From contig NZ_BJLR01000030.1 in the NCBI RefSeq assembly GCF_006538745.1, positions 62,001-126,000 of the forward strand: DNA of 64,000 bases. Direction: 5' to 3'. Source of the DNA: Cellulomonas cellasea (GTDB taxonomy: Bacteria > Actinomycetota > Actinomycetes > Actinomycetales > Cellulomonadaceae). The position numbers were made by a program, and so were the translations under genes. Positions within the stretch are counted from its first letter, which is position 1; each line of letters begins with the position of its first letter. This document shows positions 30,601 to 55,056 of this stretch, piece by piece. Below the pieces are notes generated by a model. It had not been told where the DNA came from, ran no database searches, and saw only the letters and a list, made by a program, of their open reading frames with translations.

Positions 30601-30631
30601 AAAAGGCCCGGGGAATGTCCCCGGGCCTTTT
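30601..30631 (-). terminator. Intrinsic terminator downstream of bldC
   Basis: A perfect stem AAAAGGCCCGGGGA / TCCCCGGGCCTTTT (30601-30614 and 30618-30631) with a 3-nt loop. It lies 16 bp after the bldC stop; on the minus strand the stem ends in TTTT, making it the most classical terminator in the window. Confidence 0.93.
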
Positions 30632-30646
30632 GGTGAGCTGCTGTGC

Positions 30647-30874
30647 TCAGACGTCCGAACGCTGCTGCGGGACGCCCGTGAGGAGCTGACGCACCTCGTT
30701 CTCGTGGAAGCGGCGGTGCCCGCCGAGCGTGCGGACCGCCGAGAGCTTGCCCGCCTGCGCCCAGCGCGTGACGGTCTTCGGGTCGACGCGGAACATCGCT
30801 GCGACCTCACCCGGCGTGAGCAGAGCGCCCGGCATCGAGGTGGACTCGGAACGGTTGGGGGTGGTGATGGCCAT
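30647..30874 (-). CDS. bldC: BldC-type MerR-like DNA-binding regulator
   Basis: A 75-residue winged-helix protein almost entirely made of a MerR-like domain: [39 protein letters not shown], then HENEVRQLL. It strongly resembles Streptomyces BldC, a developmental repressor that binds direct repeats cooperatively. The ATG at 30874 follows AGGAGAG. The mRNA leader carries a c-di-GMP-I riboswitch ending just before this ribosome site, so translation or transcription is expected to respond to c-di-GMP. It is divergent from a GGDEF-EAL protein. In a non-sporulating relative its targets are unknown. Confidence 0.93.
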
Positions 30875-30890
30875 GATGGCAACTCTCCTG

Positions 30891-30975
30891 TCGTTCGGTA
30901 GCTCGGCTGACCCCTGAGGCCCCGTGGCTTTGCGTCCCCACCTTGCGGCGGGTTTGCCGTTTCTCGCTGACGTCC
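30891..30975 (-). promoter_or_regulatory. c-di-GMP-I (GEMM) riboswitch in the bldC leader
   Basis: Read on the minus strand, the leader contains GGCAAACC, then CGCC-GCAA-GGTG (a GNRA-capped hairpin), GGGACGCAAAGCC, ACGGGGCCTCAGGGGTC and AGCCGAGCTACCG. These are, in order, the conserved joining segments, tetraloop, tetraloop receptor and P3 elements of the c-di-GMP-I aptamer as known from Vibrio Vc2. The aptamer ends about 2 nt before the bldC AGGAG site (30884-30889), favouring translational control. Its exact 5' boundary is estimated from the predicted start of transcription. Confidence 0.9.
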
Positions 30976-30978
30976 TCA

Positions 30979-31007
30979 ACTATGCATGAACCCGGACAAC
31001 TTCGCAA
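30979..31007 (-). promoter_or_regulatory. Predicted sigma70-type promoter for bldC riboswitch transcript
   Basis: Minus-strand -35 TTGCGA (31002-31007), a 17-bp spacer and -10 CATAGT (30979-30984). The expected start near 30972 falls exactly at the 5' edge of the riboswitch. Confidence 0.65.
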
Positions 31008-31487
31008 CAACCCCCCGAGGGTGAAACGTCCGGACCAGGGGGCCGTTCGGGTGAATCGATGCGCTTCGACGCCGTACATAACACGGCTTCCGCGACCGCG
31101 CATCCTGACCGCCGCGGGAGGCGCGGATGGGCCGGAGCAGACGTGCCCATGACGATCTCTCGCCCTCCGGCGCGATTCGTCCTACCCTTGGCCCAACGCC
31201 CAGGCGCGAGCGGGGCGGGTCGCCAGGTGACCACGGCGGGTGACGGGCGCCTCATCTTGTGCGGGTGAGGCGCCCGAACGCTGTCCGCGGCACCCTCCTT
31301 CCGCCCGATCGAGACCTGCGCCACACCGGCGCCACGTCCGGTCCGCCGCAGACCCGGCCAGGACCCGCGCACGGAGCGGTGCACCGGCGGCCGGCACCGG
31401 ACCGGGGCCACCTCCAGGGCACCTGACCTGCACCTCTCCCTCAAGAAGATCGCGCGCGTGCCGATGGTGCCACGGAGGAGCCCACAC
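31008..31487 (+). promoter_or_regulatory. Upstream/leader region of the GGDEF-EAL gene
   Basis: A 480-bp stretch with no supportable gene. A hairpin GGGCGCCTCA / TGAGGCGCCC (31245-31254 with 31266-31275, 11-nt loop) lies about 210 bp before the start and may be a leader structure. It does not match a riboswitch I can name. Two GGAGGAG ribosome sites (31474 and 31501) decide between neighbouring starts. Confidence 0.4.
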
Positions 31488-34400
31488 GTGGCTCGCAGCT
31501 GGAGGAGTCACGTGCCGCACACCTGGACCGTCCTCGCGCTCGCGCGCCACATCGGCGGGTTCTACCACGGTGAGCTGCTGGCGGGGCTGGTGCGGGAGGT
31601 CACCGCTCAGGGGGGCCGCGTCGTCGTCGCGCAGACCGCACCCGAGGCGCCCGAGCTCGACGAGACGGTCGTCGGCGAGACCGCCCTGTCGGTCGCCTGG
31701 GACCAGGCCGACGCCGTCGTCACGATCGCGCTGAGCGCGAGCGCGCCGTTCCTCGCGCGGATGCTCGAGCTCGGCAAGCCCGTCGTGCTCACGAGCCAGC
31801 AGGTCGACGGGGTCGAGGCGCCGGTCGCGCTCCCCGACAACCACGGCGGGACCCGCGCCGCCGTCGACCACCTGCGCGCGCACGGGCACACCCGCATCGG
31901 CTTCGTGGGCGACCTGCGCCAGTACGACTACCGCGAGCGCCACGCGGCGTACCGTGACGCGCTCGCCGCGCACGGACTGACCCCGCGCGACGAGCTCCTG
32001 GTCGTGGCCCGTGACTGGTCGGAGGCCGCGGGCGAGGACGCCGCCCGGGAGCTGCTCGCCCGCCCCGAGCGGCCCGACGCGGTCGTCACCGCGTCCGGGC
32101 ACAACGCCATCGGCCTCATCCGCACGCTCACCGCCGCCGGCGTGCGCGTGCCCGAGGACGTCGCGGTCGTCGCGTTCGACAACGTCGAGCACGGTGCCTA
32201 CGCGACGCCGAGCCTGTCGAGCGTGCACCAGCGGTTCGACGAGGTCGGCGCGCTCGCCGGCTCGCTCGTGATGCGGGCGCTGCGCGGCGAGCACGTGCCG
32301 ACCGGCGGCCACGTGGCCGCCGCCACCGTCGTCGTGCCGCGCGGCTCGTGCGGGTGCCGCGACGACCTGCTCACCGCTCGCTCGACCCCGGCGTCGCGCG
32401 TCGCCGGGGTGCCCGTGCAGCCCGAGGACCTCCACCGCACCCTGTCGACCCTGCTGGCCGGGCGGCACCCCGGCACCGTCGCCCCCGACGCGACCGCCGC
32501 GCTCGCGACGGAGCTCGACCGCCTCCTGCAGCTCGGCGACGGCCTGACCGAGGCGGACCTCGACGGCCTGCTGTCCCGCATGCACGAGGCGGCGCTGGAC
32601 GCCGACGCGCTGCACCGGGTCACCTCCGTGCTCACCGAGCACGTGCAGCGCCTCATGAGCGCGGGCACGTCGACGGGCGCGAGCCCGCACGCCGCCGCGC
32701 TGAGCCGCGTGGCCGCAGCGCTCTGGCGGCTGCAGAACCACGGCTCCGTGCAGCGCTCGCACGCCCTCGCGCACCATGTGCTCGAGGGCTCGGACGTCGC
32801 GGCGGCGCTGCTGCGCGCGGACGCGGACGCCGCGCGCGGTCTCGGCTGGCTCACGCACACGCACTCCCGCGCGGGGCTGCTCGCGCTGTGGGACGACGCC
32901 GCACCCGGCGCGCCGCTGCGGCTCGCGGGCGTGCACGACCCCGCCGGACTGCTCGACCACCACGTCGGCGAGGATCTCGACCGGCGCCGGTTCCCGCCGT
33001 CCGACCTCGTGGGGGCGGCCGACGGCGCGCAGGGCGAGGTGTGCCTCGTCGTGCCGGTCCGGACCGCGACCCGGCGCTGGGGGCTGCTCGCCGTGCTCGG
33101 CGTCGTGAACTCCCGGTCGAGCCACGAGGCGTACCACCACTGGGCGACGCTGCTGGCCTCGGTGCTCGAGGGCGAGGAGCTCGCGCTGAGCGCGCGCGCG
33201 AGCGAGGCCCGCTACGCGCACGCGGCACGAGCCGCGAACGACGGCCTCTGGGAGCTCGACGTCGCGACGCGCGCCATGCACGTGTCGCCGCGCGGCCGCG
33301 AGATCCTCGGCCTGGACCCCGACGCGCCCGCCCGCATGGAGCGCTGGACGGAGGTGACCCACCCCGACGACCAGGGGCGGGTGCGCGCCGCCTTCGCCCA
33401 GGCGCTCGCCGACCCGGAGGTCCCCGTCGAGGTCGAGTACCGGCTGCGCAGGCCCGACGGGGACTACCGGTGGGTGCTCAGCCGCGGGCTCGGCGTCGCC
33501 ACCGGCCCGTCGGGGCAGGCGGCGCGGCTCGTCGGCTCGCTCAGCGACATCCACCCGCGCAAGGAGCTCGAGGAGCAGCTGCGCGCGGCGGCGCTCTACG
33601 ACCACCTGACCGGCCTGCCGAACCGCCGGCTGTTCCTCGAGCGGCTCACGGCCGCGGTCGAGCAGCACCGCCGCGAGCCCGGGTCGCGGTTCGCGGTCCT
33701 GTTCTTCGACCTCGACGGCTTCAAGCTGGTCAACGACTCGCTCGGGCACCTCATGGGCGACCAGCTGCTGCTCGCCGTCGCCGAGCGCCTGCGCGCCCAG
33801 GTCCGCGGCGTCGACACGGCCGCGCGCTTCGGCGGCGACGAGTTCGCGGTCCTGCTGTCCGAGCCGGAGCCCGACGAGCTGCTCGCGATCGCCCAGCGCA
33901 TCCAGGAGCGGATCTCCGCACCCGTCGAGCTCGCCGGGCACGAGGTCGAGGTCACGGCGAGCGTCGGGGTCGCGACGTCGTCCGGGGAGTACACCGACCC
34001 CGAGGACGTGCTGCGCGACGCCGACATCGCGATGTACGACGCCAAGGGCAGCGAGCGCGGCTCCGCGTCCGTGTTCGACCCGACGATGCACGTGCGCGCG
34101 ACGGTGCGGCTGCGGGCCCGCGGCGAGCTGCGCACGGCGCTCGCGCGCAGCGAGTTCGTCGTGCACTACCAGCCCATCGTGGCGCTCGACGGCTCGGGGC
34201 TCGAGCACTTCGAGGCGCTCGTGCGCTGGGAGCACCCCGAGCGCGGGCTGCTCCTGCCCGGGGACTTCCTGCCCGCGATGGAGGACAACGCGACGATCGT
34301 GACGCTCGGGAGCTGGGTCGTCGACGAGGTGTGTCGGCAGATCGCCGCCTGGTCGCTGGACTACCCGGGGGCGGTCGCGGTGTCCGTCAACCTCTCCCAC

Positions 34401-34910
34401 CGCGAGTTCTGGGCGCCCGCGCTGCTGCGGACCGTGACCGACTCGCTCGCGCGCCACGGCGTGCCCGCGCGCAGCCTGATCCTCGAGATCACCGAGTCGG
34501 TGATCATGGCCGACCCGACCGTCGCGCGGAAGGTCATGGCCGACCTGCGGGAGCTCGGCGTGCGGCTGCACATCGACGACTTCGGGACCGGGCAGTCCTC
34601 GCTGAACGCGCTGCGGACGTTCCCGGTCGACGCGCTGAAGATCGACGGCGCGTTCATCCGCGAGCTCGAGGTCGTCGAGCAGACCACCGAGCTCGTGCGG
34701 ATCATCGTCGAGATGGGCCGGGTGCTCGGCATCGAGGTCGTCGCCGAGTGCGTCGAGACGCCGTCGCAGGCGGACCGCCTCCGGTCCATGGGCTGCGCGA
34801 ACGCGCAGGGCTGGCTCTACGCACGCGCGCTGCCCGGCGCGGAGGCCGGTGCGCTGCTCGGGCACTCCCTCGCGTCGGAGGCCGTCGAGGCCGCGGGCCC
34901 GGGGCGCTGA
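31488..34910 (+). CDS. Sensor GGDEF-EAL protein with LacI-type ligand-binding domain
   Basis: Cytoplasmic c-di-GMP turnover protein of about 1,140 residues. Domains: a periplasmic-binding-protein/LacI-type sensor without its HTH (about 10-290: TWTVLALARHIGGFYHGEL, VAVVAFDNVEHGAYATPSLS, HVPTGGHV); a helical/GAF-like stretch (300-565); PAS (570-690, ending LVGSLSDIHPRKELEEQL); GGDEF (700-865) with intact RFGGDEF at 781-786 and an RxxD inhibitory site (RGVD) five residues before it; and EAL (885-1130) with intact EAL at 909, EITES, DDFGTG and KIDGAF. Both catalytic activities look possible. GTG at 31488 (GGAGGAG, 7-nt spacing) was chosen; GTG 31512 and 31458 are alternatives. A small-molecule ligand, perhaps a sugar, may set the synthase/phosphodiesterase balance. 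Confidence 0.9.
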   Translation: MARSWRSHVPHTWTVLALARHIGGFYHGELLAGLVREVTAQGGRVVVAQTAPEAPELDETVVGETALSVAWDQADAVVTIALSASAPFLARMLELGKPVVLTSQQVDGVEAPVALPDNHGGTRAAVDHLRAHGHTRIGFVGDLRQYDYRERHAAYRDALAAHGLTPRDELLVVARDWSEAAGEDAARELLARPERPDAVVTASGHNAIGLIRTLTAAGVRVPEDVAVVAFDNVEHGAYATPSLSSVHQRFDEVGALAGSLVMRALRGEHVPTGGHVAAATVVVPRGSCGCRDDLLTARSTPASRVAGVPVQPEDLHRTLSTLLAGRHPGTVAPDATAALATELDRLLQLGDGLTEADLDGLLSRMHEAALDADALHRVTSVLTEHVQRLMSAGTSTGASPHAAALSRVAAALWRLQNHGSVQRSHALAHHVLEGSDVAAALLRADADAARGLGWLTHTHSRAGLLALWDDAAPGAPLRLAGVHDPAGLLDHHVGEDLDRRRFPPSDLVGAADGAQGEVCLVVPVRTATRRWGLLAVLGVVNSRSSHEAYHHWATLLASVLEGEELALSARASEARYAHAARAANDGLWELDVATRAMHVSPRGREILGLDPDAPARMERWTEVTHPDDQGRVRAAFAQALADPEVPVEVEYRLRRPDGDYRWVLSRGLGVATGPSGQAARLVGSLSDIHPRKELEEQLRAAALYDHLTGLPNRRLFLERLTAAVEQHRREPGSRFAVLFFDLDGFKLVNDSLGHLMGDQLLLAVAERLRAQVRGVDTAARFGGDEFAVLLSEPEPDELLAIAQRIQERISAPVELAGHEVEVTASVGVATSSGEYTDPEDVLRDADIAMYDAKGSERGSASVFDPTMHVRATVRLRARGELRTALARSEFVVHYQPIVALDGSGLEHFEALVRWEHPERGLLLPGDFLPAMEDNATIVTLGSWVVDEVCRQIAAWSLDYPGAVAVSVNLSHREFWAPALLRTVTDSLARHGVPARSLILEITESVIMADPTVARKVMADLRELGVRLHIDDFGTGQSSLNALRTFPVDALKIDGAFIRELEVVEQTTELVRIIVEMGRVLGIEVVAECVETPSQADRLRSMGCANAQGWLYARALPGAEAGALLGHSLASEAVEAAGPGR

Positions 34911-54600: not shown

Positions 54601-54637
54601 GCCACGCCTCCCGCTCGTGCCCGGCCGCAGCCGGGGA

Positions 54638-54734
54638 CCGTGCTTGCGCCGGAGGGACCGGCGCCGGGTCGTCACCTGGAGCACCCCGCCGCACGGAGGG
54701 TTGCTGTCCGGCAAGCCAGGGCTCGTGAACCGGA
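54638..54734 (-). promoter_or_regulatory. SAM riboswitch (SAM-IV / SAM-I-like), minus strand
   Basis: Read on the minus strand: GGTTCACGAGCCC, TGGCTTGCCGGACAGCAACCC, TCCGTGCGGCGGGGTGCTCC, AGGTGACGACC, then a hairpin GCGCCGG/CCGGCGC and AAGCACGG. GAG...CAGCAACCC...GGGGTGC is the conserved core of the SAM-I/SAM-IV aptamers, and the trailing hairpin plus AAGC suits SAM-IV, known in actinobacteria. It precedes the dipeptide-type ABC operon, which would be repressed at high SAM. Boundaries approximate. Confidence 0.82.
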
Positions 54735-54795
54735 TCTCGTGACCGGGGAGAGAAATACCAGGCCGGCGCCCCGGCGCTATGGCTTCGGCCGAACT

Positions 54796-54924: not shown

Positions 54925-55036
54925 GAGGTCACGAGCACCAGCACGCAGGCCCGGCTCGCTGGTCGGCAACCCCCAGTCACGGCGGGGTGCCCCGGGACAG
55001 ACCTGGCTCACCCCGCGGGGCAGAGCAAGCGTGATC
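54925..55036 (+). promoter_or_regulatory. SAM riboswitch (SAM-IV / SAM-I-like), plus strand
   Basis: Sequence blocks in order: AGGTCACGAGCACCAGC, CCCGGCTCGCTGGTCGGCAACCC, CACGGCGGGGTGCCCCGGG, ACAGACCTGG, a hairpin GCTC..CCCGCGGGG..GAGC, then AAGCGTGATCC. GAG..CCAGC...GCTGG.CGGCAACCC...GGGGTGCCCCGGG is the actinobacterial SAM-IV core. It ends 21 bp before a short ORF overlapping the flavin reductase gene, so translation or transcription of the reductase should drop when SAM is plentiful. Confidence 0.87.
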
Positions 55037-55056
55037 CACCGAACGAGGAGCCCCCG

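Follow-up and report, generated by a model that had tools for sequence, protein, structure and literature searches.

The 5' leader of a BldC-family gene in Cellulomonas cellasea, which we name bldC2, is probably a c-di-GMP-I riboswitch over nearly its whole length, with bound c-di-GMP blocking translation initiation. An Rfam search of the whole window (the 64,000-nucleotide stretch of DNA analyzed) placed a c-di-GMP-I aptamer (RF01051) at 30894 to 30968 on the minus strand, with a score of 61.4 bits (E value, 1.5e-9) against a gathering score of 35. After the match, 4 nt lead to the Shine-Dalgarno sequence AGGAG (30885 to 30889, minus strand, read from the sequence), and a further 10 nt separate this from the ATG at 30874, which puts the start codon 19 nt past the aptamer end. 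A scan for the combined aptamer-to-bldC pattern gave a single hit in the window and no hit in any of 100 shuffles. Across 58 distinct leaders, the columns of the RF01051 core (GGCAAA ... GACGCAAAGC ... CCGAA) are invariant or conserved to at least 90%, and stems P2 and P3 are paired in 99.7% and 92.8% of cells, respectively. A sequence-only reading of this DNA had described a bldC leader that carries the c-di-GMP-I landmarks and reaches the ribosome site, and had named a GEMM-I search in Rfam as a check; both points were borne out. The core, the fold, and the placement in a 5' leader are those of known c-di-GMP-I (GEMM-I) riboswitches, and binding of c-di-GMP by the bldC2 leader of C. cellasea is predicted from sequence. 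The leader differs from known members in that its target is a BldC-family regulator and in that it is almost all aptamer, with stem P1 reaching the Shine-Dalgarno sequence.

bldC2 (30647 to 30874, minus strand) encodes a 75-amino-acid protein that matches the NCBIfam model HTH_BldC (NF033787) with 103.1 bits (cut-off, 77). It also matches the solved Streptomyces BldC chains 6ama and 6amk, with which it has the DNA-binding core in common. Two BldC-family genes are encoded by the C. cellasea genome. The other copy, at G000:C17, sits beside purF-purM and has no aptamer, and the neighborhood of bldC2 is def-DUF3145-fabF. Core identity to Streptomyces BldC is 86% for the purM-linked copy and 77% for BldC2, so that the purF-purM linkage and the highest identity, which together mark the Streptomyces bldC orthologue, belong to the former. 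The riboswitch-bearing gene is a second copy and not the Streptomyces-type bldC; the earlier naming of the gene as bldC stands for its family but not for its type. BldC2 retains the stretch VDPKTVTRW, which by our count of positions would contain the residues called Lys26 and Arg30 in the Streptomyces BldC study (PMC5859096); that study describes cooperative binding of BldC to AATTNNNN(C) direct repeats. The two putative BldC classes rest on gene neighborhood, the aptamer, and residues that mostly differ (Lys/Gln, Ser/Ala, Ile/Val, and Tyr/Phe). A tree of 92 BldC cores, which offers little resolution at 59 columns, needs 4 changes of label, though a single one may be compatible with it, and in genera g6 and g9 the copies with an aptamer group among the Streptomyces-type ones. 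The tree therefore does not show that BldC2 arose just once. Past bldC2, a GC-rich inverted repeat with A/T ends (30601 to 30632, neither strand assigned) was noted in the sequence as a possible two-way terminator; it is absent from the terminator scan.

The pairing of aptamer and bldC2 extends well beyond C. cellasea. When public species genomes were scanned by pattern, the aptamer and bldC turned up together in 52 stretches, 48 of them titled Cellulomonas. In other genomes of the family, with linkage checked, the aptamer lay just upstream of all 17 scanned bldC copies that are not purM linked, and it was found on none of the 29 scanned Streptomyces-type copies. Under the genus grouping used by the genome search, and with the window counted, the pairing spans six genera, which answers the suggestion in the sequence-only reading to look for the aptamer before bldC in related genera. 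Flagella were considered as an explanation of where the riboswitch occurs and were rejected, since the genera with FlhA (13 of 25; 61 genomes) and those with RF01051 (7 of 25; 200 genomes) overlap only in part.

In the window, P1 adds only three pairs to the aptamer core. Its 5' strand (GUC, 30969 to 30971, minus strand, pairs counted) falls within the expected transcription start region (30969 to 30973), which is predicted from the spacing to the -10 element. Its 3' strand (30890 to 30893, minus strand) comprises GAC at 30890 to 30892, directly before the Shine-Dalgarno sequence, and C30893, which pairs inside. Among the 57 readable leaders, 168 of 171 P1 cells are paired, with one pair broken in three leaders of genus g14. 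All 58 leaders have a Shine-Dalgarno-like string that begins 0 to 2 nt past P1. Of the three outer P1 pairs, two vary on both sides in 11 leaders, all of one type, which may reflect few events. Over 24 pairs in the 58 leaders, 96.6% of cells are paired (91.7% when shuffled), 7 pairs show changes on both sides (4.0 when shuffled), and the covariation score is 0.181, compared with 0.087 for shuffled and at most 0.046 for slid alignments, the slid control being biased toward the tested structure, which is the window's own Rfam fold. No terminator-like site was found between 30560 and 31500 by the terminator scan, a range that includes the stretch from the aptamer to the start codon.

A promoter with a 17-bp spacer had been proposed at the 5' edge of the aptamer. 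The sequence TTGCGA-17-CATAGT is present there (31007 to 30979, minus strand), with a predicted -10 element, CATAGT (30979 to 30984), and a weak, possible -35 element, TTGCGA (31002 to 31007), read from the sequence; the permissive scan took spacers of 16 to 18 nt only. That scan, in which gaps of 4 to 10 nt were allowed, found the best -10-like hexamer ending 6 to 8 nt before P1 in 57 of the 58 related leaders and picked CATAGT or TATAGT in 44 of them. A generic consensus scanner reported no promoter in the bldC2 region of the window at its thresholds. An upstream pyrimidine run is present in many leaders. A longer P1, in which this run would pair with the whole Shine-Dalgarno sequence, was rejected because, judged by the -10 spacing, most of the run would precede the expected transcription start.

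We propose that transcription begins with the first base of P1 or one adjacent to it and that bound c-di-GMP would keep the aptamer and P1 closed. With P1 ending 0 to 2 nt from the Shine-Dalgarno sequence and the element inside the ribosome landing zone, initiation would then be blocked; when c-di-GMP drops, P1 would open and BldC2 would be made. Control is likely exerted at the level of translation, and because P1 ends 0 to 2 nt before the Shine-Dalgarno sequence, bound c-di-GMP probably turns BldC2 off. ON-type c-di-GMP-I riboswitches exist, and the opposite direction, in which the bound form frees a Shine-Dalgarno sequence that the unbound RNA hides, has perhaps one chance in a handful of being correct. 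Two of the five Shine-Dalgarno bases of the window leader have unpaired probabilities of 0.05 to 0.06 in the unbound ensemble, and its unbound minimum-energy fold pairs part of the Shine-Dalgarno sequence with the coding sequence. However, inspection by eye of the 58 leaders revealed no conserved pyrimidine-rich partner for the Shine-Dalgarno sequence; the feature that is conserved is P1 closing against it. A changed ligand is improbable. It is suggested by the variant family c-di-GMP-I-GGC (RF03167), which is the top-scoring Rfam model, above its cut-off, for 9 of 17 scanned relatives' loci, in place of RF01051. In contrast, the window aptamer itself scores 58.3 bits with this model, just under the cut-off of 59, and all 58 leaders carry GACGCAAA, as does RF01051, and lack the G of GACGCGAA, the RF03167 model consensus.

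The gene next door had been proposed to form a local loop with the riboswitch. The divergent protein (31458 to 34910, plus strand) combines a LacI-type ligand-binding domain with PAS, GGDEF, and EAL domains (Pfam Peripla_BP_3, PAS_3, GGDEF, and EAL). As had been claimed, its GGDEF and EAL domains are intact, with Pfam matches and motifs readable in the translation, where an RxxD-like site was also noted by eye ahead of GGDEF. These features, and the adjacency of the two genes both in the window and in the near relative G016 (91% identity over 308 amino acids), would suit local feedback. Against it, these were the only loci examined with the GGDEF-EAL gene beside bldC2: two other genomes of the genus, G038 and G055, lack it within the 1.5 kb of upstream sequence covered, and it is missing from all 52 named loci, for 43 of which the upstream sequence extended to 1.5 kb or more. 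The two start codons are also about 580 bp apart, and the C. cellasea genome has 35 GGDEF matches, so that the c-di-GMP level sensed by the riboswitch cannot simply be ascribed to any single neighbor. We consider the loop quite unlikely; the GGDEF-EAL gene is a neighbor outside the conserved riboswitch-bldC2 unit.

Development in Streptomyces is connected to c-di-GMP through the BldD protein. PMC4255298 lists bldC among the regulatory genes repressed by BldD and does not contain the word riboswitch; our searches of open-access papers found no report of a c-di-GMP riboswitch on bldC. In both settings c-di-GMP acts, or is predicted to act, on a bldC-type gene, but the receptor in Streptomyces is a protein at the promoter, whereas here it would be an RNA in the message of a second copy. 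With the predicted sensor at the start of the message, c-di-GMP probably acts on BldC2 directly via RNA. A BldD-like c-di-GMP-binding domain (BldD-like_C) was found in 0 of 21 genomes of the family; the same search was positive for 10 of 11 actinobacterial genomes from outside it. The RNA may therefore stand in for BldD in this family. The earlier suggestion of RNA-level wiring unlike that of Streptomyces finds support in the 52 stretches, nearly all Cellulomonas, and in the six genera, within a family where that domain was not found, with the amendment that the copy concerned differs in type from the Streptomyces bldC. We tentatively raise the notion of convergent rewiring: c-di-GMP acting through BldD holds bldC down in Streptomyces, the riboswitch would hold the second bldC down in Cellulomonas and its allies, and BldC2 would relay the signal to predicted targets in a regulon beyond the aptamer-bearing genes. 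If this is true, the same logic has been kept with an RNA receptor replacing a protein receptor. Since the leader is short and self-contained, binding and reporter assays should be straightforward. The bldC2 riboswitch would make it possible to ask whether a given regulatory logic can be re-established around another kind of receptor, and its retention on a second BldC across Cellulomonas may offer a genetically simple entry to the roles of c-di-GMP in non-sporulating, cellulose-degrading actinobacteria.

In an Rfam search of the whole window, minus-strand positions 30894-30968 scored 61.4 bits as a c-di-GMP-I aptamer (cut-off, 35). This aptamer lies upstream of the ATG (30874, minus strand) of a gene for a 75-residue BldC-family protein, which we designate bldC2. 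On this strand the order is TTGCGA, 17 nt, CATAGT, 7 nt, GUC, the aptamer, C, GAC, AGGAG, 10 nt and ATG. The aptamer-to-bldC pattern was matched once in the window and in none of 100 shuffles. The sequence-only reading had proposed such an aptamer on bldC, in a leader that ends at the ribosome site, and both points are confirmed. Its promoter with a 17-bp spacer was borne out in part: TTGCGA and CATAGT are present, but a consensus promoter scan reported no promoter at bldC2, and the promoter thus rests on the recurrence of the -10-like hexamer. We judge the riboswitch to be real and conserved and to lie on a real regulator gene; its response to c-di-GMP is predicted. The RNA class is already known. 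We found no report of bldC2 as a riboswitch target, or of the conservation of this arrangement, in the literature searched.

The BldC2 protein scored 103.1 bits against NCBIfam HTH_BldC (cut-off, 77) and matched the solved BldC chains 6ama and 6amk. The genome encodes two BldC-family proteins (search at E up to 1e-5). The other copy, on contig C17 of the window's own genome, stands in a purF-purM-bldC series, some 0.9 kb past purM, and is 86% identical to the Streptomyces BldC query; the window copy is 77% identical and has def, DUF3145 and fabF as neighbors. Two genomes that encode a BldC 100% identical to the query showed the same purF-purM order, there with about 3.5 kb separating purM from the bldC that follows it. 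Because neighborhood and identity differ from those of the purM-linked copy, the window gene was named BldC2, a name for copies that carry the aptamer and are not purM-linked. The name implies no single origin, and none is claimed, since the aptamer-linked copies of genera g6 and g9 were placed among Streptomyces-type ones in a tree of 92 BldC cores and def was absent from the 1.5-kb flanks of 8 of 17 BldC2 copies of other genomes. Among 52 named relatives, def lay within the available stretch in 29 and purF or purM in none. The motif VDPKTVTRW is kept in both BldC copies of the window's genome; by a residue count along the Streptomyces protein, we take Lys26 and Arg30 to fall within it. These are named in PMC5859096 as DNA-reading residues.

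To follow the unit across Cellulomonadaceae, the c-di-GMP-I family (RF01051) was searched in 200 genomes and found in 96, from 7 of 25 genera. In a draw of 61 of the 200 genomes, BldC was present in all and BldC2 in 18, from six genera. All 18 fall among the 19 genomes with RF01051; the other, G022 (200 contigs), showed only a purM-linked copy. At all 17 BldC2 loci scanned outside the window, the aptamer was directly upstream, which extends the arrangement to related genera, and purM was in the flanks of none of them. No aptamer was found at 29 Streptomyces-type copies (28 purM-linked copies from the family and one from a Streptomyces-like genome) or at two divergent third BldC copies (L183 and L184). 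Outside this scanned set, extra BldC copies are present in G023 and G043 and, in G053, at a contig end. These counts ignore kinship, and shared descent may explain much of the co-occurrence. Genome G008, which already has the BldC2 locus L107, carries a further non-purM-linked BldC with an aptamer (L177; 3257-3331, minus strand, contig C1). This locus is not independent, as it was classed as BldC2 on account of its aptamer; the riboswitch-BldC unit in G008 looks as if it had been duplicated. In G008 and G050, both of genus g9, a c-di-GMP-I riboswitch is found some 11 and 25 kb, respectively, from flhA.

In public species genomes, 52 stretches contained the aptamer-to-bldC pattern, an exact pattern that misses variants (g2 loci have an altered base; the g2, g6 and g9 loci came from the locus scan of family genomes). 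Forty-seven are titled Cellulomonas and one has that name misspelled; the other four are Micrococcales, Actinomycetes and Proteobacteria MAGs and Cellulosimicrobium cellulans DE0111. Among these, three share their exact leader sequences with family genomes, and the Micrococcales MAG copy groups with Cellulomonas sequences in the BldC core tree. The contig titled Proteobacteria MAG (L068, JAKBFW010000046.1) is probably misassigned, since its bldC2 leader is the same as that of G036 of the family. At the level of the order, 26 of 248 genomes had RF01051, including six from the family; at the level of the phylum, 155 of 396 genomes had it, including the window's. Of these matches, 44 loci were opened; at the 39 outside the family no BldC was found at the aptamer (best stray match, E 0.12, elsewhere in the locus), and the genes seen by eye were mostly secreted-looking, plus response regulators and a pilin-like protein.

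Within the family, bldC2 is not the sole target. The window genome's three other c-di-GMP-I aptamers (L001, L003 and L004) each precede a secreted-looking protein; a PKD domain was above cut-off in two of these, and Fn3-like and beta-helix matches were below theirs. Among the 34 best-scoring loci (L001-L034, from the window-genome and family-genome searches), the aptamer is followed by an orphan protein of 43-54 residues in 17 and by BldC in 9. The orphan (L005, L006 and 15 further loci) has a W-A core and, close to its end, a Pro-x-Gln, and the L006 copy had no Pfam match. It is a second recurrent c-di-GMP-I target in Cellulomonas and relatives. BldC2 is therefore one of several c-di-GMP outputs here, and the only recognized transcription regulator among them. 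The window also holds two SAM-IV riboswitches, back to back and pointing apart (54635-54744, minus strand; 54927-55037, plus strand).

When 58 distinct leaders of BldC2 genes are aligned, GACGCAAAGC is invariant; the consensus of the c-di-GMP-I-GGC variant, RF03167, is GACGCGAA. RF03167 was assigned by score to 9 of the 17 scanned BldC2 loci, which, given this invariance, still match the common family at this base. With a 24-pair structure that adds the closing stem P1, read by hand, to the window's Rfam fold, 96.6% of cells pair (shuffled, 91.7) and seven pairs show changes on both sides (shuffled, 4.0). The covariation score was 0.181, against 0.087 for shuffled alignments and 0.046 for the best slid version, a control that favors the structure because it was drawn from the window's fold. 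Seventeen further pair types were seen, a number reached in 11 of 500 shuffles; columns 51-77 form a standard pair in only 18 of 58 leaders.

The leaders also suggest how the switch may work. P1 reads GUC/GAC in 42 of 57 leaders (L177, whose P1 is not readable, is left out), UUG/CGA in 11, GUC/GAU in 1 and GUC/GUC, with one pair broken, in 3. In 57 of 58 leaders, 6-8 nt separate P1 from the end of a -10-like hexamer upstream (scan allowing 4-10), a spacing from which the bldC2 message should begin at P1. A Shine-Dalgarno-like string begins 0-2 nt past P1 in all 58, and no terminator-like site was found in a scan between aptamer and bldC2. This geometry and the lack of such a site favor translational control in which the bound aptamer would be the closed form. 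An ON switch is improbable but is retained because, when the window leader is folded without ligand, part of its Shine-Dalgarno is predicted to be masked in another way.

The sequence-only reading had also suggested a local loop with the divergent protein at 31458-34910 (plus strand), which has LacI-type ligand-binding, PAS, GGDEF and EAL domain matches and aligns with the solved GGDEF-EAL protein 4rnh across both catalytic domains. This was not upheld. The gene adjoins bldC2 in the window and, at 91% identity, in G016. G038 and G055, from the same genus, lack it beside bldC2, as do all 52 named loci (of which 43 extend 1.5 kb or more, and 23 extend 4.5 kb or more, upstream of bldC2), and 35 GGDEF matches, some of them partial, were found in the window's genome. 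The riboswitch is the conserved part, and the neighbor looks like a local addition.

In Streptomyces, BldD requires c-di-GMP for dimerizing and DNA binding (PMC5859096) and represses a set of regulatory genes that includes bldC (PMC4255298). The BldD-like C-terminal domain PF21179 was found in none of 21 family genomes from 20 genera and in 10 of 12 chosen control genomes (10 of 11 without the window's own). Six of these ten belong to one genus, taken to be Streptomyces because two of its genomes have BldC identical to the query. The proposed RNA-level link to BldC is supported for BldC2 but not for the Streptomyces-type copy. Whereas in Streptomyces the c-di-GMP receptor is the protein BldD, in the BldC2 leader it is predicted to be RNA. 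On the boldest reading, which takes the riboswitch to be an OFF switch, the direction predicted here, the link from c-di-GMP to BldC would have the same sign as in Streptomyces through another receptor.
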